Positions 2,421 through 49,131 of a stretch of 64,000 nt of DNA are shown piece after piece. How positions within the stretch are numbered: the stretch's first letter is position 1; every line of letters begins with the position of its first letter. The stretch comes from an uncultured Hyphomicrobiaceae bacterium (lineage in GTDB: Bacteria > Pseudomonadota > Alphaproteobacteria > Rhizobiales > CAMYJA01). The notes beneath the pieces were generated by a model. That model was not told the DNA's origin. It did not search any database and saw only the letters and a list, made by a program, of their open reading frames with translations. The position numbers and the translations under genes are program-made. The stretch lies in NCBI GenBank assembly GCA_947258705.1, contig CAMYJA010000002.1:122478-186477 (forward strand). The letters are read 5' to 3'.

Positions 2421-3404
2421 CTAATCAGTTTTATCCATTGAAACCGGGTTTAAAATTCCATCGGCCGGATCGCCGTCGAGCTTGCCCTCCACGAAAACAC
2501 GGCTGACCAGGAAATCTTCGGCGTCCAGCGTCGTCAGGTCGGATTTGCTCAGGGACTTGTTCCTGTCCGCGAAAAGACGGTTCGCCTGACGCAGACGGGC
2601 GCGGTCGAGAGCGTTGCGGATCGACCGGGCGTTGGCGAAATGCGGCAGTTTCATGCGCAGAGGAATATAGTCGTGCAAGGCTTTTTTGGCGTCGGCACTG
2701 AGCTGGTAATTGAGGTCGGACAGCATCAGTTCCGCAATTGCTTCGAGCTCCTCCGATGAGTAATCCGGGAAATCGAGGTGATGGGCGATACGCGAGCGCA
2801 TGCCCGGATTGCTCTCGAAAAAGCGGTCCATCTTGTCCTTGTAGCCGGCCAGAATGACAACCAGATCGTCGCGGTTGTTTTCCATGACCTGCAGCAGGAT
2901 CTCGATCGATTCGCCGCCGTAGTCCCGTTCGTTTTCGGGCTTGTACAGGTAATAGGCCTCGTCGATGAACAGAACCCCGCCCATTGCCTTTTTAATGACC
3001 GCCTTGGTCTTTGGCGCGGTATGGCCGATATATTGTCCGACGAGATCGTCGCGGGTTACCGAAACGAGGTGGCCCTCGCGTACGTAACCGAGGCGATGCA
3101 GAATCTCGGCCATGCGGAGTGCAACCGTGGTCTTTCCGGTGCCGGGATTGCCGGTGAAATTCATGTGCAGCGTCGGTGTCTCGGACGTCAGATCAAACTG
3201 ACGGCGCAGACGGTCAACGAGCAGCAGTGCCGCGATTTCCTTGATGCGGGTTTTAACGGGCACCAGCCCGACCAGTTCGCGGTCCAGTTTGTCGAGGACC
3301 TCCTGAACCTGCGATTGTTCGAATTCTTCCTGCAAATTAACCGAGGCTCCCTCCGGGAGGATCTCGGTATTTTGTTCAGCGGTGGCATTTTCGGTGTCGC
3401 TCAT
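2421..3404 (-). CDS. cbbX: Red-type RuBisCO activase CbbX
   Basis: AAA+ ATPase that removes inhibitory sugar phosphates from red-type form I RuBisCO by pulling on the large-subunit C-terminus. 327 residues. Walker A is GNPGTGKTT (Lys91), the pore-loop region YIGHT is at about 125-129, Walker B is GGVLFIDEA (Asp148-Glu149), followed by an arginine-finger region in GMRSRI and the C-terminal AAA lid. It is the third member of the cbbLSX block, 148 bases after cbbS across two strong hairpins that may set its expression below that of cbbLS. The family assignment is firm. No strong ribosome binding site is seen in front of the ATG at 3404. Confidence 0.96.
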
Positions 3405-3449
3405 TTCGATATCACGCTTGTTATCTGATTGATTGGGGGTGTTGCGAGG

Positions 3450-3470
3450 CGGAAGATATCTTATCTTCCG
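3450..3470. other. Perfect hairpin in the cbbS-cbbX gap (proximal to cbbX)
   Basis: Arms CGGAAGATA (3450-3458) and TATCTTCCG (3462-3470) form a 9-bp perfect stem with a 3-base loop. There is no T-tract on the transcribed (minus) strand after it, so it is better read as an mRNA processing or stability element, or a protein site, than as a simple terminator. Confidence 0.5.
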
Positions 3471-3497
3471 AATTTAATTCTGTAATTTATGTGGTTG

Positions 3498-3524
3498 CCG
3501 GCGGCGGAACACGTCCGCCGCCGG
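3498..3524. other. Strong GC-rich hairpin just after cbbS
   Basis: Arms CCGGCGGCGGA (3498-3508) and TCCGCCGCCGG (3514-3524) form an 11-bp perfect stem with a 5-base loop, 28 bases downstream of the cbbS stop. No U-tract follows on the minus strand. Stem-loops behind cbbS are known in other cbb operons as attenuators or RNA-stabilising ends; the same role is inferred here. Confidence 0.6.
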
Positions 3525-3552
3525 AACTATTATTGTAAAGTTCGACCGCAGC

Positions 3553-3990
3553 CTATGCGCGCTCGCCTTCGGGCTTGTCGGCCGCATAAGATGTGATCGT
3601 GTAGCCCATCGAACGGCCGTCGCGCTCGGTTCTTTGGAGCTTGAAGCCTGGCTCGTTAGGCGGCCGATTGACGATATAGGACATGCGCGGCGCTTCCCAG
3701 CCATGTGTATTGTCAAAGGCTGTTACGCGGATATACATGTTCGGGAAGGTCTTCCGGCAATCGTTGATTTCCATCAAGATGCCGGCCGGGTCCTTCAGAT
3801 CGAACATCGGCATGCCGAACATATCCCAATATGTGTTCCGCGGATGCGGATCATCGGTGTATTCGATATTGACCGCCCAGCCATTATCAAGGGCGTATTT
3901 GATCTGAGCCGTGATTTGCTCGTCTGTGAGTTCGGGCAGGAAAGAAAACTGCCCCTGTGTAACCCGGTTTCCGGGATTGGACATTGCCAT
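3553..3990 (-). CDS. cbbS: RuBisCO small subunit, red type
   Basis: Small subunit of form I RuBisCO, eight copies of which cap the large-subunit octamer. 145 residues. It has the red-type features: the short N-terminus with GQFSFLPELTDEQI, the WxMFGMPMFDL core strand, the CRKTFPNMYIRVTAFDNTHGWE region, and the C-terminal extension with RPPNEPGFKLQRTERDGR that forms the central-pore hairpin in red-type enzymes. A strong ribosome binding site (AAAAAGGAG) lies 9 bases before the ATG at 3990. It is 50 bases downstream of cbbL and in the same operon. Confidence 0.97.
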   Translation of the reverse strand: MAMSNPGNRVTQGQFSFLPELTDEQITAQIKYALDNGWAVNIEYTDDPHPRNTYWDMFGMPMFDLKDPAGILMEINDCRKTFPNMYIRVTAFDNTHGWEAPRMSYIVNRPPNEPGFKLQRTERDGRSMGYTITSYAADKPEGERA

Positions 3991-4040
3991 AGCATGTCAC
4001 TCCTTTTTTTCTGTCGTTTTTAACTGGTTAACTCGTTGGT

Positions 4041-5534
<1,494 letters not shown>

Positions 5535-5601
5535 TCAAAGTTTGATGTAGTCGTGCTTAAAGAACTGCCCCATGAAATCGGGGTGTTTGCTTGAAGTTTT
5601 T

Positions 5602-5631
5602 GGCGCGGCCACCCGGTATGGCGGCCGTGCC
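5602..5631. other. Hairpin between fba and cbbL
   Basis: Arms GGCGCGGCC (5602-5610) and GGCCGTGCC (5623-5631) pair over 9 positions with one G-T wobble. It lies just after the aldolase stop and about 80 bases before cbbL. With no T-tract on the minus strand, a processing or mRNA-stabilising role upstream of the highly expressed cbbLS is more likely than termination. Confidence 0.4.
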
Positions 5632-5639
5632 TGTTTAGG

Positions 5640-6722
5640 TTATTCTGCTGCTTTGGCCGCTCCTACGACTGGATCGAGCGAACCGGCTGCATAGCGCTTG
5701 GCCATTTCCGCAATTGGTATGACCTTGATCTTGTGCGCCTGTCCGGACGTGCCGAAGGCTTCAAACCGGTCGTGACAGACTTTTGCCATGGCATCGGTTG
5801 CCGGCTTGAGGAACTTGCGCGGGTCGAATTGCGATTTGTCTTCCATCGCGACCTTGCGCATCTGGCCCGTTGCCGCCATACGCAGGTCGGTATCGATATT
5901 GACCTTGCGGACGCCGGTCTTGATGCCGCGTGCGATTTCCTCGACCGGTACGCCATAAGTCTGCGGCATTTCTCCGCCGAACTCGTTGATGACGTCCTGG
6001 AGCTCCTGGGGAACGGATGACGAGCCATGCATAACGATATGCGTGTTCGGCAGACGTTTGTGGATTTCCGCGATGACGGTCATGTCGAGAATGTCACCCG
6101 TCGGCGGGCGGGTGAATTTATACGCACCGTGCGAGGTGCCGATGGCGACGGCGAGGGCGTCGCACTTGGTTTGCGTGACAAAGTCCAGCGCTTCATCGGG
6201 ATCGGTCAAAAGCATGTCTTTCGACAATGCGCCTTCGAAGCCATGGCCGTCTTCCGCCTCGCCCTTGCCGGTTTCGAGCGAGCCGAGGCAACCCAGTTCA
6301 CCTTCGACCGATGCGCCGACCATATGCGCCATGTCGGTCACGGTCTTGGTGACATTGACGTTGTAATCGTAAGAGGCGGGGGTTTTGGCATCCTCTTCGA
6401 GCGAGCCATCCATCATGACGGAAGTGAAACCGTGCTGGATCGCGCTCAGGCAGGTGGCGGCGTTGTTGCCGTGATCCTGATGCATGCAGATCGGAATTTC
6501 GGGATAGATCAGCGTCAGGGCCTCTATCATTTTCGCAAGCATGATGTCGTTGGCGTATTCACGGGCGCCCCGGCTGGCCTGAATGATGACCGGTGCGTCG
6601 CATTTGCGCGCCGCCTCCATGATGGCGATGCCCTGTTCCATATTGTTGATGTTATAGGCGGGAACGCCGTAATCGTTTTCAGCAGCGTGATCGAGAAGCT
6701 GTCTTAATGTGATGAGTGCCAT
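5640..6722 (-). CDS. cbbA: Class II fructose-bisphosphate aldolase, Calvin-cycle subtype
   Basis: Zn-dependent aldolase joining triose phosphates to fructose 1,6-bisphosphate and, in CBB bacteria, also making sedoheptulose 1,7-bisphosphate. 360 residues. Metal-site signatures are [11 protein letters not shown] (class II HxDH motif), [23 protein letters not shown] and [11 protein letters not shown], with the NIDTDLRMA phosphate-binding end. The start ATG has ATAAAGGAG-like purines just upstream (rc of TTTATTCTCCTTG). It lies 41 bases after pgk and before cbbL. It would supply both bisphosphates that need dephosphorylation, yet no bisphosphatase is present here (see pfp). Confidence 0.96.
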
Positions 6723-6763
6723 TTTATTCTCCTTGGGTGATCTTGATTTCTCACTTGATGCCT

Positions 6764-7978
6764 CTAATAGGATGTCAGCGCGACAATGCCCGGTAATTGC
6801 CGGCCTTCAAGCCACTCCAGAAATGCCCCGCCAGCCGTGGATATATATGTGAATTGATCCGAGACATTTGCTGCGTTTAGTGCCGCGACGGTATCGCCGC
6901 CGCCTGCGATCGTTGCCAGCTGGCCGCTTGATGTGAGTTCAGCCGCTTTTTTCGCGAGGCCGAACGTGCCTTCGCCAAAGGGTTCGATTTCGAACGCGCC
7001 CAATGGTCCGTTCCAGAGCAGTGTACGGCAATCCGAGATTTCATCGTTCAGATTTGCCAAAGTGGCATGTCCCACATCGAGGATCATACCATCATCAGGT
7101 ATATTTGCGACATCAAAGGTCCCAATGTCGGCGCCCGCCTTGAATTCGGATGCGACCCGTGCGTCCGTGGGGAGAAGAATCTTGCAATTCATTTCAGCGG
7201 CGCGGCTCAGGATTTCCTCGACCGTATCGGCAAAGTCGGGTTCGCAAAGCGAGTTACCAACTCCGATGCCCTGGGCGTGCAGAAATGTATTGGCCATGCC
7301 GCCGCCGATGATGAGCTTGTCGACCTTGGCGACCATGTTGGTCAGAACGGGAATTTTCGTCGATACCTTGGCGCCGCCGACGACGGCGGCTACGGGCCGT
7401 GCGGGGTTGTCGAGGGCCGATCTGAGCGCACTGACTTCCAGCATCAGGGACCGGCCGGCATAGGCGGGCAGAATTTCGGCAATTGCGGCGGTGGATGCGT
7501 GGGCCCGGTGCGAACAGGAAAAGGCGTCATTGACATAAATGTCGCCAAGCCTGGCCAGGCTTTGGGCAAACCCGCCGTCGTTTTTCTCCTCGCCTTCATG
7601 GAAGCGCAGATTTTCGAGCAGCACAACCTGGCCGTTTTCAAGCGCGGCCACAGCGCTTTCCGCCGCTTCGCCAATGCAGTCATCGGCGAAACCAACCGGC
7701 GTTCCGTCCATCAGACCGCGCATTTTGTCAGCGACGGGTTTCAAGGTCATTTCAGGAACACGAGCACCTTTCGGGCGGCCGAAATGCGACAATATGACGA
7801 CCTTCGCCCCGCGCCGGGCAAAGTCCTCAACAGTCGGCAGAAAGCGCTCGATGCGGGTCGCATCGGTTACCTGCCCATCCGCCGTGGGGACGTTGAGATC
7901 CGCCCTCACGAGGATGCGCTTGCCGGCAATGTCGAGGCCGTCAGTCGATCGCAGTTTATCGAGCGCCATTTCGGTCAT
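6764..7978 (-). CDS. pgk: Phosphoglycerate kinase
   Basis: Phosphorylates 3-phosphoglycerate with ATP in the reductive direction of the CBB cycle. About 404 residues from the chosen start. Visible motifs are [11 protein letters not shown], the substrate-binding [59 protein letters not shown] and the C-terminal GGGDTVAAL nucleotide site. The ATG at 7978 overlaps the gap stop as ATGA, the normal translational coupling; a second in-frame ATG at 7969 is also possible. The longer frame up to 8032 would intrude into gap and is rejected. Confidence 0.96.
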
Positions 7979-8985
7979 ATGAGCTTGCCCATAGCAACGG
8001 CTGTGTCGCTCATGCGGTTGGAGAAGCCCCATTCATTGTCATACCAGGAGACGACCCGGCAGAACGTGCCGTCGACGACCTGCGTGCTGCCCGAGTCGAA
8101 TGTCGAGCTTGCGGATGAATGGTTGAAGTCGGAGGACACGAGTTTCCGGTCGTTGACTTCAAGGACGCCTTGCACGCCGTTCGAAGCCGCGTTCGAGACG
8201 GCCTGGTTGATCTCATCGACCGTGGTCGGACGGGCCGATGTAAACGTAAGGTCGATGAGGCTGACATTCGGCGTCGGTACGCGAATGGCTGCGCCGTCGA
8301 GCTTGCCCTGCATTTCAGGCAGGACGAGGCCGACCGCGCGGGCGGCGCCCGTCGAAGTCGGGATCAGGTTCGATGCTGCGCCGCGGGCGCGGTAGAAGTC
8401 GGAGTGGAAGGTGTCCACGGTCCTTTGGTCGCCGGTGTAGGAATGGATGGTCGTCATGTATCCGCGCTCGATGCCGATCGAGTTGTTGAGCGCCTGCGCC
8501 ACTGGTGCGAGGCAGTTGGTGGTGCATGACGCGTTCGAAACGACGTGATGGCCGGATTCCAGCTTTTCGTGATTGACGCCGTAAACTACCGTCAGATCGG
8601 CTTCGCCGCAAGGCGCTGAAACGAGAACGCGCTTGGCGCCGCCATCGATGTGGCGGGAGGCCGACTTCTTGTCGGTGAAGATGCCCGTGCATTCCATCAC
8701 GATGTCGACATTGAGGTCGTTCCAGGGAAGGTCTTCAGGATTTCTTTCGGAGCAGAATTTAATGCTCTGGCCGCCGACATTCATATTGCCGTCAGACAGG
8801 TTGATATCGCCGTTATAGCGGCCATGCACGCTATCGAATTCAAGCAGGTGAGCGTTCATTTCGGCCGGCGCCAGATCGTTGATGGCGACGAATTCAAGGT
8901 CGTCGCGGCCCGATTCCAGATAGGATCTCAGAACCAGGCGACCGATACGGCCGAATCCATTGATGGCTACGCGTTTTTTCGACAT
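7975..8985 (-). CDS. gap: Glyceraldehyde-3-phosphate dehydrogenase, type I
   Basis: Reduces 1,3-bisphosphoglycerate to glyceraldehyde 3-phosphate. 336 residues, standard length. The Rossmann start is VAINGFGRIGRLVLRS, the catalytic Cys lies in SNASCTTNCLAP, the catalytic His in TTIHSYTGDQ, and the C-terminal SWYDNEWGFSNRM is canonical. NDLAPAEM after the second beta strand leaves the cofactor preference (NAD versus NADP) undecided by eye. It overlaps pgk by 4 bases and follows tkt by 48 bases. The cbb name would be cbbG. Confidence 0.97.
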   Translation of the reverse strand: MSKKRVAINGFGRIGRLVLRSYLESGRDDLEFVAINDLAPAEMNAHLLEFDSVHGRYNGDINLSDGNMNVGGQSIKFCSERNPEDLPWNDLNVDIVMECTGIFTDKKSASRHIDGGAKRVLVSAPCGEADLTVVYGVNHEKLESGHHVVSNASCTTNCLAPVAQALNNSIGIERGYMTTIHSYTGDQRTVDTFHSDFYRARGAASNLIPTSTGAARAVGLVLPEMQGKLDGAAIRVPTPNVSLIDLTFTSARPTTVDEINQAVSNAASNGVQGVLEVNDRKLVSSDFNHSSASSTFDSGSTQVVDGTFCRVVSWYDNEWGFSNRMSDTAVAMGKLI

Positions 8986-9033
8986 TTATATTTCCTTCGC
9001 TTTTCGGGGTTTTTTGATTTTGCGATTTCTTGT

Positions 9034-11064
9034 TCAGGCGCTGGCTATTTTTTCCCGTGCCATTTCGGCGACATGTTTGGCCGTGATGCCGAAGTGCTCG
9101 TAAAGCGCATCGCCCGGGCCGGAGGCGCCGAAGCCCTTCATGCCGACGAAGCCGCCATGATCGCCGAGCCAGCGGTCCCAGCCGAATCGGACGGCGGCCT
9201 CGATGCCGATGCGCGGCGCGTCGCCGAGAACTTCATGGCGGTATTTGTGATCCTGGGCGGCAAAGAGTTCCCAGCATGGCATGGACACGACCGCAGCCTT
9301 GACGCCGTTGTCGGCCAGGATGTCGGCCGCGGCAATTGCGATCTCGACTTCCGATCCGGTCGCGAGCAATGTGACATCACGTCCTCCATCGGCTTCGCGA
9401 AGCACATAGGCGCCCTTGGCCGAAAGGTTTTCGTCGGTATGTTCGGTCCTGACGGTCGAGAGTTTCTGACGGGTCATCGACATGATCGAAGGCGTATTCG
9501 GGGTCGACAGGGCCATTTCCCAGCATTCCGCCGATTCCACCGTATCTGCCGGGCGGAAAACATTGAGGTTTGGTATGGCGCGCAGGCTGGCAAGGGTTTC
9601 GACCGGTTGATGGGTGGGTCCGTCTTCGCCAACCCCGATGCTGTCATGGGTCATGACGTGGATGACACGGGCTCCCATTAACGCGCCGAGGCGGATTGCG
9701 CCGCGGGAGTAATCGGCAAAGACCAGGAAGGTTCCGCTATAGGGTACGGCGCCGCCATGCAGGGCGAGGCCGTTCATCGCTGCCGCCATGCCGAATTCGC
9801 GCACGCCATAATGCATGTAATTGCCCGACGCGTCGTCCGGCGTGATGGGTTTATACTGGCTCGTTTTGCAGCCATTGGAACCCGTGAGGTCGGCCGAACC
9901 GCCAACGATGCCCGGTACCAGCGGCAACAGCGCTTCCGCAACCATGGCGTTCGACTGGCGGGTGGCCACGGCGCCCGGATTAGCACCACCGGCGGAAACT
10001 TCCGCCTTCAGGCTCTTCACGGCATCTTTGATATTGGCCATCACAGCTTCGCTGACCGGATTGGCGAGAGATGTGCGTTCCGCATCGCTCAATTTCGTTG
10101 CGCGGCCGGTCCAGGCGTCATATGCGCCACGGCCGCGGCTGCCGGCAGCCTGCCAGCTTGCCATGATGTGGTCGGGCACGACGAAGGGCGGGTGATCCCA
10201 GCCAAGCTCGACGCGCGCGGCGGCAATTTCTTCTTCGCCGAGTTTCTCGCCATGAGTGGCTGCCGTTCCTTGCTTGTTCGGCGCGCCAAAGCCGATGATT
10301 GTCTTGCAGGCGATCAATGAAGGCTTGTCCGATTTCTGGGCGGCCTCGATTGCGCTCGCGACGGCTTCCGGATCATGTCCGTCGACACGGACGGCATCCC
10401 AGCCCGATGCCTCGAAACGTTTCAGCTGATCGTCGGAGCACGACATGTCGAGGGTGCCGTCGATGGAGATATTGTTGTCGTCCCAGAGCAGGATGAGCTT
10501 GTTCAGCTTGTAATGGCCGGCCATGGAGATCGCTTCATGGCTGACGCCTTCCATCAGGCAGCCATCGCCTGAAATAACATAGGTATAGTGATCGGAAATA
10601 TCGCTTCCCAGCCGGTCCGCCACCATTCTCTCGGCCAGCGCCATGCCGACGGATGTGGCGAGCCCCTGACCCAATGGTCCGGTGGTCGTCTCGACGCCAA
10701 CCATATGGCCGTATTCCGGGTGGCCGGCGGTCTTGGAACCCAATTGGCGGAAATTCTTGATGTCGTCGATCGTCACGCCGGGATAGCCGGTGAGATAAAG
10801 CAGGGAATAAATCAGCATGGAGCCGTGGCCCGCGGACAAAACGAAGCGGTCCCGGTCATACCAATCGGGATTTGCGGCATCATATTTAAGGAAGCGGGTG
10901 AACAACACGGTGGCGACATCGGCCATACCCATCGGCATGCCCGGATGGCCGCAGGCTGCCTTTTCGACGGCATCCATGGACAATGCGCGGATGGCGTTGG
11001 CCATTTCCTTGTGGGTGGCGGTCTCGGTGTCTGTTCCGCCAGAGACTGCTGCGGCCTCAGTCAT
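9034..11064 (-). CDS. tkt: Transketolase
   Basis: Thiamine diphosphate enzyme that moves two-carbon units between sugar phosphates in CBB regeneration. 676 residues, typical. Visible are CGHPGMPMG near the N-terminus, the ThDP/metal motif [13 protein letters not shown] ... [14 protein letters not shown], the second domain with [35 protein letters not shown], and the C-terminal domain with [16 protein letters not shown] precedes the ATG at 11064. It is second in the operon, 23 bases after the first phosphoribulokinase gene. Confidence 0.97.
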
Positions 11065-11087
11065 ATGCTTATCTCCTAAATTGATCC

Positions 11088-12023
11088 TTACAGGGCGTGT
11101 TCGCCGAGTGCGGCTTTAACCATGTGATATGCAACGAGCAGCTGGGTCAGCGCCAATGGATGGCTGACGGTTACTCCATTGCTGTTTTCTATTGCGCCTA
11201 CATTCTCGCGTAGGTGTCCCGCTTCCGGGATCAGTTTCCAGAGGGAATCCTCTATTCTTTCGGCTCTTGCGTCGCTGAGGTTGCCATTGATTTCGAGCAC
11301 ATCGACCGGCTTGCCGTCATAGCGGGTCAGCTCCAGATTGATGTGGCTGTCGCCGACGGCGTTCAAAATCGGGGCAAAATCGGGATGGGGAAGCGTCGGG
11401 CGCAGGATTTGACGCACGTCCAGATGCCTGTCCGCCTGTTCCTTATCGGTCGGCGGGGGCTGAAAACGAATGATGATGTCGGTGAATTCCCGTTGCGGGT
11501 CAATGAAACGGGGGCTGTCGTCACGTCTTTTCTCAAGAGAGGCGCGGACTTCCTCCTCGGAATATCCACGCTTCAGGGTATCGCGCTGGATTTTCCAGCG
11601 AATGCGCAGATCCTCGTCCGGATGGAGGAATATTTTCACATCGTAGCAATCGCGCATGGCTCGGGTCGAGTAGCCGAGAAGCCCCTCGGCGATGACGTAA
11701 TCCTTGGGAACGATATATTCCGGGCGGTCAAGCGTGCCTTTATCGTGATTATAGACGGGCTTGAGTATGGGCTGGCCGGCGCGCAGCTGGCGCAGATGCT
11801 GCTCGAGTATGTCGATGTAGTTGCCGCGCGGATCCAGCGCCGAAATGCCGTTTTCGGCGCGCTCATTGCGGTCATATGAATGATAGTCGTCGGTGCAGAT
11901 GACCGTGCACCGATCCTGACCGAGAATTTTGGCAACGCCGGCGGACAATGTCGTCTTGCCCGTCGCACTGTCTCCAACAATTCCCAAAATGACAGGACGA
12001 TCGACTTTTTTAGGCATATTCAA
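11088..12023 (-). CDS. Phosphoribulokinase, class II-like (cyanobacterial/plant-like)
   Basis: Predicted to phosphorylate ribulose 5-phosphate to ribulose 1,5-bisphosphate. About 311 residues with the P-loop GDSATGKTT (Lys23). Its landmarks match cyanobacterial and plant enzymes, not the usual proteobacterial Cbb[66 protein letters not shown] and ADRHLDVRQ-type late motifs. The first codon of the frame is TTG at 12023 with GAGGAGC 8 bases upstream; an ATG at 12017 is the alternative. It is first in the long minus-strand CBB operon. A second, non-orthologous PRK lies 320 bases upstream. A uridine-kinase-like activity cannot be excluded without assay. Confidence 0.82.
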
Positions 12024-22350: not shown

Positions 22351-24147
22351 TTATCGGCCGGTTGCCGCTTTTTTCGGACCTCTTCTTTCCCGGAGCTCGG
22401 CTCCCGAGCGCCCCTCGAGATGCAGTTCCTTTTTCAGTTTGCTCAGGTAAAACTGCTCGTTTTCCATGACCGTTTTGTAATCCCAGTTGTCGATTTTTGC
22501 CAGACGGTTGACCATCGCGAACTCGGTCATCTGCCTCAGCTCACGTTGCTCGTCCCAGGGCAAAAGCAAATCGCGCTTCTCCTGATATTCCCTGTTATTG
22601 ATCATGGGATTGATATCCTGTTTGTTCCCGGTGGCGTGGGGCAGGGGCAGGGGCAGCAAATTGCCCAGACTGGCGCGGCAATCGTCGCGCTCGGTTGCGT
22701 CCGTAAAGATGGAATTGAGCCAGAGTGATTTTCTTCTCGGACGCCGGGGAAAGACATGCTCGACGCTGATGTCGCTCGGTTTCCAACGCAGATCGCCGCC
22801 CTTGGTGAGCAGATCGTTCAACAAAAGGAGAACAAGCTTGGCTGACTGGCCGGAGCCCGAATAGAGGTCATGGGTGAGCTGATAGAGCACGCCCTCCTGC
22901 TCGTCGGCGGTCAGATAAAGGCGGCTTTTTTTCTGGTTCATCACGTCGCCGCTCATAATATCACGGATCAACTGGCGATACCTCGTTTCGCGTTTCGAGC
23001 CGCCAAATCCCAGAATGGAGAGGCCGAACGAAAGGCGCCGCAATTCTCTCAGAAATTCTTCGATCAGTGCATTGTCGCCCTTGTGCTCGCCGATGAACTG
23101 GATTGCCGAAGGTATCCAGGTTTGAAATCGCACCCATTGCAACATGGTCAGATAACGGTGGATCTGACTGTCTTCGGGTAATTCGCGCGTTTCGGGATTA
23201 CGGATGTATAGCAGGCCATCACAGACCGGATTGAAATATTTCTCTATATAGGCCGGCGAGCCGCCCTGCTGCTGGGCAAGGGCGCAATTCTCCGCGAGGA
23301 TCTTGGATTTGGCGCGGCCGTAAATATGGTGGATGATCGAAAACACCTGGTCGAAATCCGGGCCGAGCCGATTTTCTTTCTCGCGCCAGTCGCGCGTCAA
23401 TTCCTCGCGCATGTCCGCGGGGATCGATTGGTCGCCGAGGATGGTGGCGCGTCCGATATCCGCTACCGTAAGGGCGCGGCCGCGCTGATTGATCGACATG
23501 AAGATATTATATGCGGTGTCGATATCTTCCGAGATCGCGTGAATGATCTTGACCCGCTCCAGAATGAATTTTATCAGCCCCGGCCGGAGTTCCTGCGCCA
23601 TTATCGACAGGCGCTTTCTGTAATTGTCGCGGATGTCGAGAATTTTTTCCTGAGACGGTTTCAGATCTTCGTCGTCCGACGCGATCAGCGTCGCCCCCAT
23701 GGGCTGAACGTATTTCTGAAATATTTCCGCGTCATTGTTGAAGAGCGTGAGCTGATAATCATAGGGCGAAGACTCGCCTTCAAACTTGATCAGTTCGTGC
23801 AGGCGTGATCGTTCGTCCTTGTCATCGCTGAGATCGCGCAGGGTGGCCAGCAATAATGTCAGCGTCGCAAAGCGCTGTTGGCCGTCGACAATCTTGTAAA
23901 CGTCATAAGGCAGCGCGCTTATGCCGCCCGTTATCGGCTCCACGAGCAGATCCTGTTGGGCGCAGACGGTCATGCCGAGAAAATAGTCTTCACCCGGGCC
24001 GTCGGCAAACGCAATTGAGAAATCGTCGAGAAGCTGGATTGCCTCGTCTCTTGTCCAGGAGAAGGGTCTTTGGTAGCTGGGGAGGACGTATAGAATTTGT
24101 TCTGAAAAAAGTTTACCGATGCTTTGGGGAGACGCGTTGAAACTCAT
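22351..24147 (-). CDS. DUF262-DUF1524 fusion (GmrSD-like nuclease, putative defence gene)
   Basis: 598 residues. The N-terminal DUF262 (ParB/GmrS-like) domain has the signature YVLPSYQRPFSW, and VDGQQRFATL at about 90, the NTP-binding DGQQR motif. The C-terminal DUF1524 HNH domain has SVEHVFPR, the W/F spacing, and SLGNLLPLP with the following Asn-rich segment. GmrSD proteins cut modified (glucosylated hydroxymethylcytosine) DNA as type IV restriction enzymes, and relatives are anti-phage. Here both halves are in one polypeptide. No methylase, toxin or other defence gene is next to it. Its 5' flank (24148-24432) is AT-rich. The defence role is inferred from the family. Confidence 0.85.
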   Translation of the reverse strand: MSFNASPQSIGKLFSEQILYVLPSYQRPFSWTRDEAIQLLDDFSIAFADGPGEDYFLGMTVCAQQDLLVEPITGGISALPYDVYKIVDGQQRFATLTLLLATLRDLSDDKDERSRLHELIKFEGESSPYDYQLTLFNNDAEIFQKYVQPMGATLIASDDEDLKPSQEKILDIRDNYRKRLSIMAQELRPGLIKFILERVKIIHAISEDIDTAYNIFMSINQRGRALTVADIGRATILGDQSIPADMREELTRDWREKENRLGPDFDQVFSIIHHIYGRAKSKILAENCALAQQQGGSPAYIEKYFNPVCDGLLYIRNPETRELPEDSQIHRYLTMLQWVRFQTWIPSAIQFIGEHKGDNALIEEFLRELRRLSFGLSILGFGGSKRETRYRQLIRDIMSGDVMNQKKSRLYLTADEQEGVLYQLTHDLYSGSGQSAKLVLLLLNDLLTKGGDLRWKPSDISVEHVFPRRPRRKSLWLNSIFTDATERDDCRASLGNLLPLPLPHATGNKQDINPMINNREYQEKRDLLLPWDEQRELRQMTEFAMVNRLAKIDNWDYKTVMENEQFYLSKLKKELHLEGRSGAELRERRGPKKAATGR

Positions 24148-27938: not shown

Positions 27939-29702
27939 ATGAATTTCAAACGTGGTGTTCTGGCTGTGTCGGCAGCGCTCGCAGCGATACTTGCCGGCAG
28001 TACGGCCAGGGCCGAGGTCACAGCTCAGGATATCCTGAACGATCAAAAAACCGTCGAAGACGTCGTGACCCATGGCAGTGGGCCGCGCGGGCAAAGATAC
28101 AGCCCCCTCGCCAATATCGACACCGGAAATGTCGCGCATCTCGTGCCGGCATGGTCGTTTTCGTTTGGCGGCGGTAAACTGCGCGGAGAGCAATCCCAGG
28201 CGGTCATGAGCGACGGCATTGTGTATGTCACGGGTTCCTACAGCCGCATATGGGCCATCGATTCGCAGACCGGCGAAGAGATCTGGCAATATGACGCGCC
28301 ACTGCCCGAAGACATCAAACCCTGCTGCGGCGTGGCCAATCGCGGTGCGGTTCTTTTCAAGGACAAGGTATATTTCGGAACCCTCGATGCCTATCTGGTC
28401 GCACTCGACGCCAAAAACGGCAAACTCGCCTGGCGGAAAAAAATCGGAGATTACAAGGAGGGCTACTCCTACACAGCGGCCCCGTTGATCGTGAACGGCA
28501 TGGTCGTTACGGGTGTTTCGGGCGGCGACTATGGTATTGTCGGCCGGGTCGAGGCACGCAATGCGGATACCGGCGATCTCGTCTGGTCGCGGCCGATTAT
28601 CGAAGGTCATGTGGGCACGCTCAATGGCAAGCCGTCTACCATGACCGGCATGGCGGGCGAAAGCTGGCCCGGCGACACCTGGAAACGGGGTGGCGGCGCG
28701 CCCTCGCTCGGCGGCACTTATGACCCCGATACCAACCTCCTCTATTTCGGCACCGGCCACCCGATGCCCTGGAACAGTCATCAACGTCCGGGCGACAATA
28801 AATGGACGTCCTCGCGTCTCGCCATCAATCCGCAAAATGGCGAAATCGTCTGGGGCTTTCAGACCACGCCGAATGACAGCTGGGGCTATGGCGGCACCAA
28901 CGAGTTCATTCCGTTCGATTACAGGCTCGACGGCAAAACCGTCAAGGCAGGCGCCACGGCCGACGCCAATGGTTTTTTCTTTGTCCTCGACCGTACCGAT
29001 GGCGCGTTCATCCGTGCTTCGCAATATGCGCGGGATGTCACATGGGCGAGGGGTATCGACAGGAGCGGCCGTCCGGTCGTCACGAAAGGCGGCAGGCCGG
29101 GCAATCCCGTAGATTCGGCATCCGGCCAGATCGGCAGCTCCGTGTTTGCGGCTCCGTCGTTCCTCGGCGGCAAGAACCGCAATCCGATGGCCTACAGCCC
29201 GCAGACCGGATTTTTCTATATCCCCTCAAACGAGTGGGGCATGGATTTGTGGAACACCCCCGCAACCTATGTGAAAGGCATGCCCTACAAGGGGGCTGGG
29301 CATACCGTCAAACCGCTATATGAATATATCGGCTCGCTCAAGGCGATGGATCCCACGACCGGAAAAATTGTCTGGGAAGTGCGCAACAAGGCGCCTTTTT
29401 GGGGTGGCGTTCTTGCAACCGCCGGCGGGCTGGTATTCACCGGCACGCCCGAGGGCTATCTCAAGGCATTTGATGCAAAGAACGGCAAGGAGCTTTGGAA
29501 GTTCAATACCGGCTCGGGCATCGTCGCGCCTCCCATTAGCTGGGAGGAGGATGGCGAGCAGTATATCGGCGTCGCATCAGGCTGGGGCGGGGCTCAACAG
29601 CTCTGGGGCAAGGGCGTCGCCAAGGTTCTCAAGCATGTCAATCAGGGCGGCAGTTACTGGGTCTTCAAACTGCAGCGCCACAAGGCCAGGGAACCGCTTT
29701 GA
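27939..29702 (+). CDS. PQQ-dependent alcohol dehydrogenase-like quinoprotein, atypical active site
   Basis: 587 residues. The ATG at 27939 follows GAGGGAAGGG and starts a signal peptide cleaved after ARA (about residue 25), so it is periplasmic. The eight-bladed propeller with Trp-docking repeats is evident, as is the vicinal disulfide Cys129-Cys130. But the residues that define methanol/ethanol dehydrogenases differ: metal-ligand Glu is Asp197 (SGGDYG), ligand Asn is His274 (GTGHP), the PQQ-stacking Trp after GGG is Ser256, and the catalytic-base Asp and the lanthanide-marker Asp are Gly316 and Gly318 (DSWGYGG). No cytochrome domain, mxa/xox partner or pqq synthesis gene is near. It is convergent with the multiheme cytochrome operon. 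Confidence 0.88.
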
Positions 29703-31565: not shown

Positions 31566-33947
31566 CTACTTCTTCTTCAGGGAAGCGGCATAGGCCCTGA
31601 TTATCTTATTCATCAGCTTGATGTGCTGGGCGTCATTCAGGATGCCCTTGGTCGCTACCTTGCTCCAGAGCTGTTCATTGGTCATTTCCCGATGGCATCC
31701 CATGCACAGGCCCGTGCGCTCCATGCCGTCACGCACCTTCTTCGGCAGCGCCTTTGACAACGGCCAGTGCGAACCGACGGTCTGGGTCTGCTGGCCGTCC
31801 TTGATGATCACCGAGAGATCGAAATCCAGCTTGGGAATTTTCGGGATCTGGACCTGGATGTTCCTCGGTATCGGCTTGCCGGTCCTCTGGTCGATCAGAT
31901 CCTCGATGACATCTTCCGTGTGCCGGGTCTGGAATACACCGCCGCCGATACCGTAGCCAAGGGCCTTGGGATTGTTATGGCAGCTCTCGCAGGTGCGGGC
32001 CTTGCGCTGTGCCGAATGCGGCTGAACCGGCGCCATGTCTATAGCCAGCGGAACCCTGGACTGGCCGAGCATTTTTTGTTCATCCTTGGCATCCGCAATG
32101 GCATTGAGCGCTATCGTCTTGCCCTTGCGGTCGATTACGGTCCAGATCACCTGGCAACCCGGCATCAGAGGCGTCACGCGCCCCTCGCCATTGATTCCGA
32201 GAACCGGATCCTCCCACCTCAGATAGGTGCGTGTCTCATATGCCTTGCCCGGGATCTTGGGTCCATGGGTGCCAAGCGCCGACTCCGCCGTCTGCCCGTT
32301 GGCCGATACCTTCGAGCCGCCGGCGACCCAGTCCGTGTCCTTTTTGTCACCGCTATAGTCCATCTTGACATGGCAGCCATAGCATTGCGGCACCCAGGAA
32401 GCGTGGCAGGCGTAACATTCCATACTATCCGTATGCTTTTTGACACTGCTCATCGCGACCAGGGCATCCTGGCTTTTCCAGTTGCCCGATTTCGCGATTG
32501 ATTTCAGCACCGGAACCTTGAAGTCGGCACCCGTGGCCGAGTGCAGTATTACATTGTCGCCATCCTTGACGACGTTGCCGAAGGGATTGCCGCGTGCGGT
32601 TTTGAGGTAGCCGTCGCGCTTCTTGTAAATGGTGGCGAATTGTTCGGTTTCATCCAGCAGACCGTCGGCGAGGCCCCGCGGGGTCTGGGGAAGCTTGCGG
32701 CCGAACTCTTCGGAATAGCCGGTCGGCAGTTCCCAGGGATATTTGGCGACCGTGCCGTGGCAGTCCTGACATTCGATCTCTACCTGGGCCAGCGTCGTAC
32801 CGAAAATATTGCCGTCGCCATGCATATCGATAGACGTGTGGCAGTCCTGGCAGAGCATGCCGCCCTTTGGATTTTCCGGCCGACTCTTGATCTGATGGTG
32901 CAGATCGTCCGAGATGAACAGATATTTTTTCGTATGTAGTTTCGGCTGCTTCTTTCCTTGGGCGTTGAACGGGCTGCCATAGGGGAATTCCATCAACCCC
33001 TGATAGGTGACGCCTATTCGCTTGCCGCGATTATGACAGGAGTTGCACGTCTCAACCGGGATGCCGTTGCCCGCCTTGCGGGTGCCATGCAACCGGTGGG
33101 TCAGCATATGTCCGTGCTCAGACTTGCTGATGGTCGGATCATTGCCTTCGTAAATGCCTTCATTGCCATAGAGCATGTGGCATGAAGAACAGCCCATGCC
33201 GCGGTAGTCACCGCGTTTTTCGCGGCCCTTGACGCCGACATGGCAGCGCTGGCACTGCTGGCGCTGATAGGTGATGCCTGCCAGCTTGGGATCCTTCTCG
33301 ATCTCGTCGACGGTAGGCAATGGTATTTGTTTCAGCTCTTTGGGAAATTGATCGGGGTAGGCGGAAATCATGGCCAGCATGTATTTCTGGTACTCTTCCG
33401 TGCCGACCTCCGGTGTCGGTCCATCCTCGTCCTTGACGTCGTAATTGCCCCACGGAACCTTGTAATTCTGGACTTCCCTGATGCCAAAAGTATGCAGGTT
33501 GCCCTGTATCTTGCCGGCTTCGGTGTTCATCAGCGATTTTTTCACGCGCTCGGCATAGCCGGCATGACACTGACCGCAGGTCCGGTCGGCGATCCAGATG
33601 CTTCCCGGGTCGGGGTAAAAGGTCTTGGGTCCGATGCCTTCTGCAAAGTCAGCCGGCGCGCCGCTGTGCGCGGCCGCCTTTGTCGTCGCCTGAGGGGTGC
33701 CGCCATGGCAGGTGACGCAGCCGCTCGGATCACCGACGCTTTCACCAAACTGTTTTATCTGGGACAGCATTTCGCTGCCCGGTTCGCGGATCGACTTGAT
33801 CCCCTCATGGCAGCTGAGACAGCCCTTTTTCTTGGCCAGTGTCTCGGAAACTTTTTCGAACTTTTTCTCGCCCGTATTCTGGGCGTTGGCTGGTGCGGAT
33901 GCGCACAAAGCAAATAGTACCACGATAATCAGGTTCGATTTCCGCAT
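31566..33947 (-). CDS. Exported dodecaheme cytochrome c
   Basis: 793 residues with a Sec signal peptide (LIIVVLFALCASAPANA, cleavage near 22) and no later membrane helix. Twelve CxxCH heme sites, with first cysteines at about 43, 77, 124, 232, 253, 301, 366, 393, 511, 522, 653 and 748. Several free His residues (for example SEHGHMLTHRLHGT at 277-290 and DLHHQ at 349) can be distal ligands. Sites 9 and 10 form the tight pair CYACHASWVPQCYGCH. The spacing does not match the NrfA, Hao, OTR or MtrA families that I know. It should be a periplasmic or surface electron carrier or oxidoreductase. It leads an operon with a TPR protein and a small exported protein. Confidence 0.9.
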   Translation of the reverse strand: MRKSNLIIVVLFALCASAPANAQNTGEKKFEKVSETLAKKKGCLSCHEGIKSIREPGSEMLSQIKQFGESVGDPSGCVTCHGGTPQATTKAAAHSGAPADFAEGIGPKTFYPDPGSIWIADRTCGQCHAGYAERVKKSLMNTEAGKIQGNLHTFGIREVQNYKVPWGNYDVKDEDGPTPEVGTEEYQKYMLAMISAYPDQFPKELKQIPLPTVDEIEKDPKLAGITYQRQQCQRCHVGVKGREKRGDYRGMGCSSCHMLYGNEGIYEGNDPTISKSEHGHMLTHRLHGTRKAGNGIPVETCNSCHNRGKRIGVTYQGLMEFPYGSPFNAQGKKQPKLHTKKYLFISDDLHHQIKSRPENPKGGMLCQDCHTSIDMHGDGNIFGTTLAQVEIECQDCHGTVAKYPWELPTGYSEEFGRKLPQTPRGLADGLLDETEQFATIYKKRDGYLKTARGNPFGNVVKDGDNVILHSATGADFKVPVLKSIAKSGNWKSQDALVAMSSVKKHTDSMECYACHASWVPQCYGCHVKMDYSGDKKDTDWVAGGSKVSANGQTAESALGTHGPKIPGKAYETRTYLRWEDPVLGINGEGRVTPLMPGCQVIWTVIDRKGKTIALNAIADAKDEQKMLGQSRVPLAIDMAPVQPHSAQRKARTCESCHNNPKALGYGIGGGVFQTRHTEDVIEDLIDQRTGKPIPRNIQVQIPKIPKLDFDLSVIIKDGQQTQTVGSHWPLSKALPKKVRDGMERTGLCMGCHREMTNEQLWSKVATKGILNDAQHIKLMNKIIRAYAASLKKK

Positions 33948-45314: not shown

Positions 45315-46448
45315 TCAGACCCGACCAATCGTTAGATGTGATCGCAGCCGCATCATTGCGTAGCCGAAGCAGACGCCGCCGATTGCAGCCATTGCCACGA
45401 GTTTCTGCCAAAGCAACGCGATGCCAGCGCCTCGGAAAACGACGGCATTGGCGAATTCGCTGTAATAGGTCAACGGAGAAATAGCCGTCAAAATTTTCAT
45501 CTGTTCGGGCATGGATTCCGCTGGCATCCACGCGCCGGACAGAAAAGCAATCGGTGCAATCACTAAAATGGCAAGAAGCCCGAGCTGCGGGACACTACGC
45601 GTAATCGTCGCGAGCAGGATGCCTATGCCGGCCGTACTGAATTGATAAACGAACGTACCTACCAGAAAGAGCAACAGCGAACCGCGCATTGGCGATCCAA
45701 AATAACCCTGGATGACCAGCACCATCGAGATGCCTGCGCCGGCAAGCAGAACGATGGAGTTGGCCCAGAATTTGGCGAACAGAATCTCAACAGGTCGAAC
45801 CGGCATGGCCAACAAGTGCTCAAGTGTTTTGTGTTCCCGCTCTCTCAACAGCGCCGCACCCGGCAGCAATATTGTCAACATGGTTATGACGATCAAAAGC
45901 TCGACGAGGGCGTCCTGCCACTTGCTGATTAAATTTGGGTTATACCTCACCCGAATTTTTGGTCCGAAAGAAAGACGGTTATCCTCAGGAAGGATATCAA
46001 GCTCTTCGGTAACTTTGCGAAGAACAATCTGCCGGATATAGTTCGTTCCGATAAAGGCCTGACCGACAGCGGTGGCATCTGCGTTTATCTGCACATGGGG
46101 CGTCTCTCCCGCGAGAAGGTCGGCCTGAAATTTTGGTGGGATCACCAAGACGAAATCATTGTCCCGGGTTTCCAGGGCAGCCCCAATCTCATTGAATGTA
46201 CGCGGTTGTGCATAGCTGAAATATGGCGGCCTGAAAGCGCTCGCGATCGAACGGGATAATTGCGTTTTATCCTCATCGACAATTCCAAGGGATGCGTTGC
46301 GGACCTGAAAGCTTAATCCTTCGCCGGCAATTACGATCTGCAGTGTGAGCGCATAAAGTACGAAAATTAGCAGGACGGGATCCCGACGAAGGCTGATCAG
46401 CTCTTTCAAACCCAGCGTGTAGATATGTCCCAGCGACTGCCACATCAT
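45315..46448 (-). CDS. ABC-2 type permease (second of two)
   Basis: 377 residues from the ATG at 46448, which overlaps the upstream permease stop. Topology: a first helix (LLIFVLYALTLQIVIAG), a large periplasmic domain (about 40-190), then a cluster of five helices including LVELLIVITMLTILLPGAALLREREHKTLEHLLAMPVRP, the hallmark coupling segment of ABC-2 permeases, and GLLAILVIAPIAFLSGAWMPAESMP. It resembles YhhJ/YbhR/YbhS-type drug or small-molecule exporters. It is last in a four-gene coupled operon. Confidence 0.88.
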   Translation of the reverse strand: MMWQSLGHIYTLGLKELISLRRDPVLLIFVLYALTLQIVIAGEGLSFQVRNASLGIVDEDKTQLSRSIASAFRPPYFSYAQPRTFNEIGAALETRDNDFVLVIPPKFQADLLAGETPHVQINADATAVGQAFIGTNYIRQIVLRKVTEELDILPEDNRLSFGPKIRVRYNPNLISKWQDALVELLIVITMLTILLPGAALLREREHKTLEHLLAMPVRPVEILFAKFWANSIVLLAGAGISMVLVIQGYFGSPMRGSLLLFLVGTFVYQFSTAGIGILLATITRSVPQLGLLAILVIAPIAFLSGAWMPAESMPEQMKILTAISPLTYYSEFANAVVFRGAGIALLWQKLVAMAAIGGVCFGYAMMRLRSHLTIGRV

Positions 46449-47569
46449 TTTTTCTGCTTTTTCAGGAGTTGAACGCTCGCGGCGAAAAACGCGGCCGAAA
46501 AGCCAGCAAGCATGAGGTAGTCCTTGACGAGATTGGCGACCCCGAATCCCTTGGCGAATGTCCCCACCGATATATTGTGGAAGTACATCGCGGGAAAACC
46601 CTGGGCGACGTATTTCGCAACCCCGGCGATATTCGATACCGGTGCCAGAAGCCCGGAATAGAGAAAGGCTGGCACAAGGGTTATGATGAAGGTCACCAGC
46701 AGAGCGGCCAGTTGACTGCTTGTAAAACACGAGACCATGAGTCCGAGGCCGGTGCCCGCGATTACATATAATATTGCTCCAAGCGTTAGTGCGGTCATGC
46801 TTCCCGTCATTGTTATACCGAACAGATAAATCGCCAGCACGACGTGAAGGACGAAATTGACCATTCCGATGGCCACATAAGGCAGTTGCTTCCCCAGCGT
46901 AAATTCGAGGCGCGATGTTGGGGCGGTATAGAAGTTGGTGATCGTTCCAAGTTCCTTTTCGCGAACGACAGCGAGAGCAGAAGACAGCGCGGAGGAAAAA
47001 AGAAGAATGGCTGCGATCATTCCGGGAACGAACGCCACTTTGCTCTTGAGCCCCTGATTAAACCAGTAGCGAGGTTCGAATCTGACTGGCTCCAGACGGC
47101 ATGGCTCCCCGGTTTCAAACCGGATTGTCGCGCACAGATTCGCAGCATGCGCGGCCTTGACATAACCGCGAAGCGTTTCCGCACGAAACGTCATGGCGCC
47201 GTCGATCGAAATAGCTACTTCGGGTTCCAATCCCAGTGCCAGATCGCGGCCGAATTTCGGCGTAATCTCGATAGCGAATCTCGCCTCACCCGTCTCTATG
47301 CGCCGTGCGAGTTCCGGCCTTGATGACACGTGGCCTATATGTTTGAAAAAGCGCGATTGAGCATATCCATCGAGATAAGTTCTGCTTTGCGGCGTCCGGT
47401 CATCGTTAAGTGTGATATAGGCGATATTTTCCATGTCGAGCGTCAAGCCGAAGCTGAAAATGACGAACAGGATGTTGGGTACGAGAAAGACTGAAACGAG
47501 CCTGAATCGATCACGCGAAATCTCCGTATATTCACGCTGGATAAGCGACCATATGCGTCCGAAATTCAT
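46445..47569 (-). CDS. ABC-2 type permease (first of two)
   Basis: 374 residues. It has the same plan as the following permease: N-terminal helix (FLVPNILFVIFSFGLTLDME), a large extracytoplasmic domain, then ILLFSSALSSALAVVREKELGTITNFYTAPTSRLEF (coupling segment) and four more helices, ending KKQKK. The two permeases probably form a heterodimeric channel. Overlaps both neighbours by about 4 bases, so the operon is translationally coupled. Confidence 0.88.
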   Translation of the reverse strand: MNFGRIWSLIQREYTEISRDRFRLVSVFLVPNILFVIFSFGLTLDMENIAYITLNDDRTPQSRTYLDGYAQSRFFKHIGHVSSRPELARRIETGEARFAIEITPKFGRDLALGLEPEVAISIDGAMTFRAETLRGYVKAAHAANLCATIRFETGEPCRLEPVRFEPRYWFNQGLKSKVAFVPGMIAAILLFSSALSSALAVVREKELGTITNFYTAPTSRLEFTLGKQLPYVAIGMVNFVLHVVLAIYLFGITMTGSMTALTLGAILYVIAGTGLGLMVSCFTSSQLAALLVTFIITLVPAFLYSGLLAPVSNIAGVAKYVAQGFPAMYFHNISVGTFAKGFGVANLVKDYLMLAGFSAAFFAASVQLLKKQKK

Positions 47570-49131
47570 TGCATGGCGCCCCCTGCAAGCTGCGAAGCGC
47601 TGGCCCGGGCGCGATCATCCTCGATGAAAGCTACGAAGGCATCCTCCAGACTGTCTGTTTTGGTGTTCGCAAGCAGCGCATCGGGTGTATCGTCGGCCAG
47701 GAGTCGCCCTTCATTCATCAATGCCACACGGTCGCATCGCTCGGCCTCACCGAGGTAATGCGTAGAGACGAAGATGGTCGTATTTCGATCTTCTGAAAGA
47801 GTACGGAACGACTCCCACAATTTTTCCCGCGCCAGCGGATCTACGCCTGATGTCGGCTCATCAAGAATAAGCAGTTCGGGCTGGTGAATTATCGCAACGG
47901 CCAGTGACAGGCGCTGGCGAATGCCAATGGGCAGCTCAGAAGCGAGTTGATCCATATAGCCGGTTAGCTCGAACTCGTCCGCCAGATCCGCAATGCGCGC
48001 GTCCAAACTGTCGCGCGGCAGATCGAATAGCCGACCGTGCAGTAACAGATTCTGTCTGACAGTCAGTTCTGAATAAAGAGAGAATTGTTGCGACATATAA
48101 CCAAGCCGGTGCAGCCAATGTGTGTCGCCCGCCGAGACGACACGACCGTAAATCCTCGCTGTTCCGGCGCTCGGCTGCAGCAATCCGGTCAGCATTTTCA
48201 TGGTCGTCGTCTTGCCGCAACCATTGGGCCCGATGAAGCCATAAATTTCGCCGCGACGGATCTGGAAGTTCACCTGATCAACGGCGGTAAATTTGCCGAA
48301 CCGGCGGGTCAGATCTTTCGCCTCGATAACGATTTCCCTGTTGCCCCGTGGTTTTCTCGATCGCTGTGCGCGCACCGTGCGAGTCCAGCCGCTCGAGAGG
48401 AGGCTCTCATATGCGTCATCCAGAGTCGCAGCATCGGTCTGTTTTTTGATTTCTGCTGGAGCGCCGGTAGCAAAAATACGGCCCGCATCCATCATCACAA
48501 GCCGGTCGAATTCATCGGCCTCGTCCATATAGGCGGTTGCCACTAGAACAGTTGTATTCGTCTCGCGTCGCATAATATCGCGGACCAGCTGCCAGAAATT
48601 ACGCCGCGAAAGAGGATCGACGCCAGTGGTCGGCTCGTCCAGAACCAGTAAAGAGGGTTCGTGAATCAGGATCGTGCACAGACCCAGCTTCTGCTTCATG
48701 CCGCCGGAAAGATTGGCCGCGCGCCGCTCAGAAAACGCGGCCAGATCCGTCGACTGAAGGAGCTCATTCATGCGGATGTCCGTGAGGTCCTTCGAGATCC
48801 CGAAAAGCGATGAGAAAAATCTGATATTTTCTTCGACTGATAATTCCCCATAGAGATTTTGGCCGAGCCCCTGCGGCATGAAGGCGAGTTGTGGGCGCAC
48901 GCTATCACGGTGAGATTTGCTGGCCATATCACCGCCGAGCACTTTGACGGATCCGTCTTGAATCTTGGTCACTCCAGCAATGATAGAAAGCAGCGTCGAC
49001 TTTCCAACACCGTCGGGTCCAACGAAGCCAATCAATCCTCCTTCAGCCAGGTTGAGATCAATGTCGATCAGCGCTTTGATATCGCCATAGCGGTGATTAA
49101 CCCCTTCGATATTGACAAAATTGGAGGTCAT
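47566..49131 (-). CDS. Double-ATPase ABC transporter subunit (YhiH/RbbA N-terminal type)
   Basis: 521 residues with two full nucleotide-binding domains. Domain 1: Walker A GPDGVGKST, signature LSGGMKQKLGLC, Walker B LLVLDEPTTGVDP. Domain 2: Walker A GPNGCGKTT, signature LPIGIRQRLSLA (the usual SGG is replaced by PIG), Walker B LLILDEPTSGVDP. The Walker A loops differ slightly, with Asp in GPDG. In RbbA (YhiH) these two domains are fused to a permease; here the permeases are separate genes. It powers export with the HlyD-type partner. Confidence 0.9.
   Translation of the reverse strand: MTSNFVNIEGVNHRYGDIKALIDIDLNLAEGGLIGFVGPDGVGKSTLLSIIAGVTKIQDGSVKVLGGDMASKSHRDSVRPQLAFMPQGLGQNLYGELSVEENIRFFSSLFGISKDLTDIRMNELLQSTDLAAFSERRAANLSGGMKQKLGLCTILIHEPSLLVLDEPTTGVDPLSRRNFWQLVRDIMRRETNTTVLVATAYMDEADEFDRLVMMDAGRIFATGAPAEIKKQTDAATLDDAYESLLSSGWTRTVRAQRSRKPRGNREIVIEAKDLTRRFGKFTAVDQVNFQIRRGEIYGFIGPNGCGKTTTMKMLTGLLQPSAGTARIYGRVVSAGDTHWLHRLGYMSQQFSLYSELTVRQNLLLHGRLFDLPRDSLDARIADLADEFELTGYMDQLASELPIGIRQRLSLAVAIIHQPELLILDEPTSGVDPLAREKLWESFRTLSEDRNTTIFVSTHYLGEAERCDRVALMNEGRLLADDTPDALLANTKTDSLEDAFVAFIEDDRARASASQLAGGAMQ

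Follow-up and report, generated by a model that had tools for sequence, protein, structure and literature searches.

A probable cofactor-empty pseudoenzyme of ExaF/PedH descent in a Hyphomicrobiales genome

The stretch of 64,000 nucleotides analysed here (the window) encodes an exported propeller protein which is most likely a pseudoenzyme, because it has other residues where its family holds the metal and, at two positions, PQQ, and because searches of the host genome revealed no genes for PQQ synthesis. We favour, with moderate confidence, the view that this periplasmic protein derives from a lanthanide alcohol dehydrogenase, is empty of cofactor and has been kept for a role in binding or as a scaffold. 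It would leave both PQQ and metal unbound and would not oxidise alcohols, while a binding role would persist. The ancestor would have been an ExaF/PedH-type lanthanide- and PQQ-dependent alcohol dehydrogenase. In a host without PQQ synthesis the cofactor would be missing and the metal/PQQ pocket would be freed of constraint (in this presumed order of events), the exported propeller being kept meanwhile under purifying selection. Its present role may be that of a periplasmic scaffold or a ligand-binding propeller like BamB, rather than alcohol oxidation.

The reading frame starts with ATG and runs for 587 codons without internal stops (Table 1). Matches to PF01011 and TIGR03075 lie far above the cut-offs, and the TIGR03075 score (698 bits against a curated cut-off of 480) marks the protein as an ExaF/PedH-type PQQ alcohol dehydrogenase (PQQ-ADH) by descent. 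Among the sequences of solved structures PedH is the best match (E 4e-226), and ExaA also matches (2.5e-190). In the tree the protein falls within the PedH-like clade as the sister of a canonical Hyphomicrobiales copy with the D-x-D motif (97% SH-aLRT). Judged from its sequence, the protein clearly descends from the ExaF/PedH-type clade of lanthanide- and PQQ-dependent alcohol dehydrogenases. Codon use is host-like, GC3 matches that of the neighbouring genes, and promoter and terminator scans gave no hits on the + strand at the gene.

Table 1. Features of the propeller gene, with positions in the window
Feature	Position	Strand	Basis
CDS of 587 aa; periplasmic eight-bladed propeller of the PQQ-ADH type and ExaF/PedH lineage, with a lost cofactor site	27939..29702	+	ORF, PF01011/TIGR03075 matches, PedH TM-score 0.90
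Sec signal peptide, residues 1-25, ends ARA	27939..28013	+	By eye; low-confidence N-terminal stretch in AlphaFold2 model
Vicinal Cys129-Cys130, retained	28323..28328	+	Alignment to PedH/ExaA
E to D197, metal ligand position (PedH Glu199 / ExaA E179)	28527..28529	+	Alignment to PedH/ExaA
W to S256, PQQ-stacking Trp position (ExaA W248)	28704..28706	+	Alignment to PedH/ExaA
N to H274, metal ligand position (PedH Asn281 / ExaA N266)	28758..28760	+	Alignment to PedH/ExaA
D to G316, catalytic/metal Asp position (PedH Asp323 / ExaA D316)	28884..28886	+	Alignment to PedH/ExaA
D to G318, lanthanide Asp position (PedH Asp325; Ser318 in ExaA)	28890..28892	+	Alignment to PedH/ExaA
R to A343, PQQ-contacting Arg position (ExaA R344)	28965..28967	+	CGA (sister) to GCC, 3 bases; Arg invariant in 102 relatives
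Loop 445-455, changed invariants K445V, A449P, F455H, plus A448M, L451K; probable active-site mouth	29271..29303	+	Column comparison
C-terminal loop, changed invariants V553Q, P554Q, G558K	29595..29612	+	Column comparison

The changes in the cofactor site come as a set: each of the four metal ligands is replaced, and so are two PQQ contacts. The latter are the stacking Trp and an Arg, now S256 and A343, and we take both positions to contact PQQ as they do in the established MxaF and ExaA structures. The Glu and Asn ligands of the ExaF/PedH enzyme type are absent (D197 and H274), and G316-Y-G318 stands in place of both the D-x-D lanthanide motif and the D-x-S/T/A catalytic Asp motif of the ExaA type. 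The metal ligands of PedH are Glu199, Asn281, Asp323 and Asp325 (PMC11845868), the lanthanide Asp being reported as essential for lanthanide coordination and activity (PMC8546591). The retained residues are R135, N413, W488, W549 and the Cys pair typical of PQQ-ADH (C129-C130, which may form a disulfide).

A preliminary description of the gene had listed Asp/His for Glu/Asn, Ser256 for Trp and Gly for both Asp, and the alignment with PedH and ExaA confirms each residue and its number, with no canonical site restored. Alignment slippage is unlikely as the flanking motifs (CC..NRG, GG.YGIVG, GGGAP, GTG.P.PWN, TPNDSW.Y.G.NE and AD.NGF) are gap-free. Sequencing error was rejected because several of the replaced codons differ from those of the sister by two or three bases (three in R343A, F455H, V553Q and G558K); since this is so, the loss is also probably not very recent. 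The earlier statement that the protein fits neither the MxaF, XoxF nor ExaA type is apt for the active site but not for descent, which places it in the ExaF/PedH clade.

Two sources supplied the relatives: 397 genomes belonging to the order, and GTDB 220 genomes (the 80 best of 194). The GTDB search may have left out copies in this genome or in a very closely related one. In 102 distinct relatives, order-mates included, the Glu, the Trp, both Asp and the Arg are invariant, and the Asn is replaced by Gln in two. Among the 144 columns invariant in 103 relatives, 15 are changed in the window protein, while leave-one-out treatment of such columns gives at most three changes in any relative and none in the sister. 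This sister (L038) comes from a Hyphomicrobiales MAG (isolate OFTM156); it is 70% identical and fully canonical in its site. No degenerate clade was met among the 80 best GTDB 220 relatives or the order-level matches examined, and a codon-pattern search for W-G-[YF]-G-G-x-N-E in 385 Alphaproteobacterial genomes returned the window gene and one other match only, a short unrelated frame (G600/L126). A clade sharing H274/G316/G318, which the preliminary description had proposed to look for, was thus not found in these three sets. Homologues in the plasmid search reach 66% identity at most among the matches listed. Because the relatives keep the site and the emptied-motif pattern recurs just in the window gene and the unrelated frame, the protein appears, on sequence comparison, to be the lone degenerate copy in the material searched.

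The fold is predicted to be intact: the AlphaFold2 model built with 42 sequences has a pLDDT of 78 and a pTM of 0.84, and Foldseek ranks PedH first. Together with the alignment of C129-C130 to PedH and ExaA, the TM-score of 0.90 bears out the earlier observation that the Cys pair and the propeller are preserved. A model of the sister built from those 42 loci reaches a pLDDT of 81 and a pTM of 0.85. Loops 197-199, 244-255 and 275-277, those of the lost Glu, Trp and Asn, fall below a pLDDT of 50 in the window protein and not in the sister, which hints at a loosened pocket. Low confidence at 316-319 and 552-554 was dropped as a sign of disorder, the sister being low there as well (319-322 and 554-558).

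The host genome (2.77 Mb, 66 contigs, 100% complete) apparently lacks PQQ synthesis, as judged from its gene content. The pqqC profile has no match in it and exceeds the cut-off in 25 of the 30 genomes of the same search. For pqqB there is just a background-like sub-cut-off match of 30 bits, against 375-391 bits in four relatives, and the pqqE profile yields only sub-cut-off matches, of the same kind as in all 14 control genomes. The PQQ_2 propeller profile detects two loci, the window gene and one on contig C22; the latter matches the BamB-type profile PF13360. Beyond these two the genome has no PQQ-type propeller locus, and the profile search found no PQQ dehydrogenase in it besides the window gene. 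Four genomes of the order (G336, G323, G360 and G095) are likewise without a pqqC match and keep canonical sites in their ExaF/PedH-like genes (L019, L027, L031 and L033, respectively); therefore, the absence of pqqC is by itself no predictor that the site is lost. Since G360 is 100% complete and has neither pqqC nor pqqB above the cut-off, this bacterium may scavenge PQQ. The host of the window gene, a member of the order Hyphomicrobiales, is probably an autotroph that uses the Calvin cycle, because positions 2421-12023 of the window carry genes for CbbX, the RuBisCO large subunit, transketolase and phosphoribulokinase; a class II aldolase gene lies there too.

The gene surroundings also differ from those of the sister. 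The sister gene adjoins a quinoprotein-associated SoxYZ-like carrier (G167:C16:1022-1675) and, as seen by eye, a response-regulator-like frame; both are absent from the locus of the window gene, which is flanked by genes for a PdeM-like phosphoesterase, TPR proteins and a multihaem cytochrome. Except for weak matches of common families, these neighbours have no homologues at the loci of the relatives.

The main rival to the pseudoenzyme is a slowly decaying relic, whose use went with PQQ synthesis and which drifts functionless, having acquired no stop codon yet; we consider this unlikely, though it deserves serious weight. It would agree with the isolation of the locus from partner genes, with the missing PQQ synthesis genes and with the long end branch of the window protein (0.68 against 0.24 for the sister), and also with 36 lineage-only changes, against five in the sister, at columns in which ten outgroup sequences all agree. 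Conversely, the 587-codon frame and the signal peptide are intact, no disabling mutation accompanies the sites that lie two or three bases from the sister codon, 129 of the 144 invariant columns (and 189 of the 222 highly conserved ones) are kept, and variable columns changed at rates near those of the sister (41% against 38% and 71% against 55%). The pairwise comparison with the sister gives a dN of 0.24, a dS of 1.58, which is near saturation, and a dN/dS of about 0.15. Changes at conserved columns affect seven of 15 in the cofactor site and 26 of 207 elsewhere (Fisher p = 0.0023, a guide only, since the cofactor list was taken from knowledge of the MxaF, XoxF and PedH structures and drawn up when the main changes had already been seen). 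Read from the alignment columns of the one genome that carries the emptied form, this pattern is not one of uniform drift; the 26 changed columns outside the site, a faster pace than in the sister, fit partial decay.

The other alternatives leave the pocket in use. A re-purposed site, in which D197, H274 and H455 together with Q85 or N413 would form a new metal or ligand site with catalytic or sensing function, seems improbable to us. Potential ligands (D197 and H274) do occur among the replacements, new polar or charged residues arose at invariant or nearly invariant positions (L451K, F455H, V553Q, P554Q and G558K), and the Cys pair, N413, W488 and W549 persist; against this, two ligand positions now hold Gly and that of the stacking Trp holds Ser, so that chemistry was removed rather than replaced, and the new residue set is conserved in no clade found. 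Conversion of the cavity into a ligand or metal site built from D197, H274 and H455 with K451, Q553, Q554 and K558 in a PQQ-less autotroph is a doubtful prospect of much the same order; if true, the protein would be a binding protein, a sensor or an enzyme of a new kind in the periplasm. Least probable is altered PQQ binding, that is, a protein which holds scavenged PQQ differently and still oxidises a substrate. The retention of the Cys pair, R135, N413, W488 and W549 and the use of imported PQQ by some bacteria (PMC12124388) speak for it. Against it are the change of all four metal ligands, including the Asp reported as essential (PMC8546591), the lack of the sister's quinoprotein neighbours at the window locus and the report that Alphaproteobacteria largely lack the PQQ importer PqqU (PMC12124388). 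Among the three options offered by the preliminary description, a non-catalytic role is thus preferred, while different PQQ binding and an unusual substrate are less so. Its term “rewired” is less likely to describe the site than “emptied”, given six positions altered together, no PQQ synthesis genes found and missing accessory genes.

With PedH/ExaF, the lanthanide-dependent ethanol dehydrogenase (6ZCV, 6ZCW; PQQ-ADH type 2b), the putative pseudoenzyme shares the clade, the propeller, the Cys pair and the signal peptide, but it lacks the equivalents of the four PedH ligands, the stacking Trp and the PQQ Arg. ExaA, the Ca-dependent quinoprotein ethanol dehydrogenase (1FLG), has the same fold and Cys pair at about 50% identity in the fold alignment, and it keeps E179, W248, N266, D316 and R344, which the window protein does not. 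BamB is a periplasmic eight-bladed propeller of the same superfamily that carries no PQQ and has a scaffold role. It is only remotely related (TM-score of about 0.45 on query length); unlike BamB, the window protein stems from a true dehydrogenase and its signal peptide has no lipobox, as judged by eye. Membership in the BamB equivalog TIGR03300 was rejected (99 bits against a cut-off of 285). The NCBIfam family TIGR04528, “acido-empty-quinoprotein group A”, belongs to the same propeller superfamily, and its name denotes quinoproteins thought to be PQQ-less; the window protein is not a member of it either (357.7 bits against a cut-off of 650, with canonical relatives at 370-387).

Among the papers searched, none dealt with an “empty quinoprotein” or with inactive quinoprotein homologues. 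In an ocean metagenome survey, 26.5% of 6,328 PQQ dehydrogenase homologues had neither lanthanide nor calcium diagnostic residues (PMC11996626); these bulk data are likened to the window protein on metal residues alone. Quinoproteins without metal residues are thus known in bulk, and the novelty lies in a loss that can be placed well within the ExaF/PedH clade, with a canonical sister beside it in the tree. With the whole metal site and key PQQ contacts lost and the fold kept as predicted, the protein would be a clear case for quinoproteins, and its identity of about 70% to a fully canonical sister opens the steps from enzyme to pseudoenzyme to direct study. A profile score such as that for TIGR03075 here can lead to annotation as “PQQ-dependent methanol/ethanol dehydrogenase” that is wrong about function, which matters to metagenome counts of lanthanide metabolism.

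Several other genes of the window, all on the - strand, deserve mention. The secreted protein encoded at 31566-33947 is 793 aa long, and a count by eye gives it twelve CxxCH haem motifs; its best profile is ExtM, a selenite/tellurite reduction cytochrome, at a score far below the cut-off (227 bits against 800). An RbbA-like ribosome-associated ATPase/transporter is present as two frames at 45315-49131, the ATPase half at 47566-49131 (profile positions 2-509) and the permease half at 45315-46730 (profile positions 528-905). The 598-aa product of 22351-24147 has a GmrSD-type nuclease N-terminal domain (PF03235) and may represent an anti-phage defence gene.
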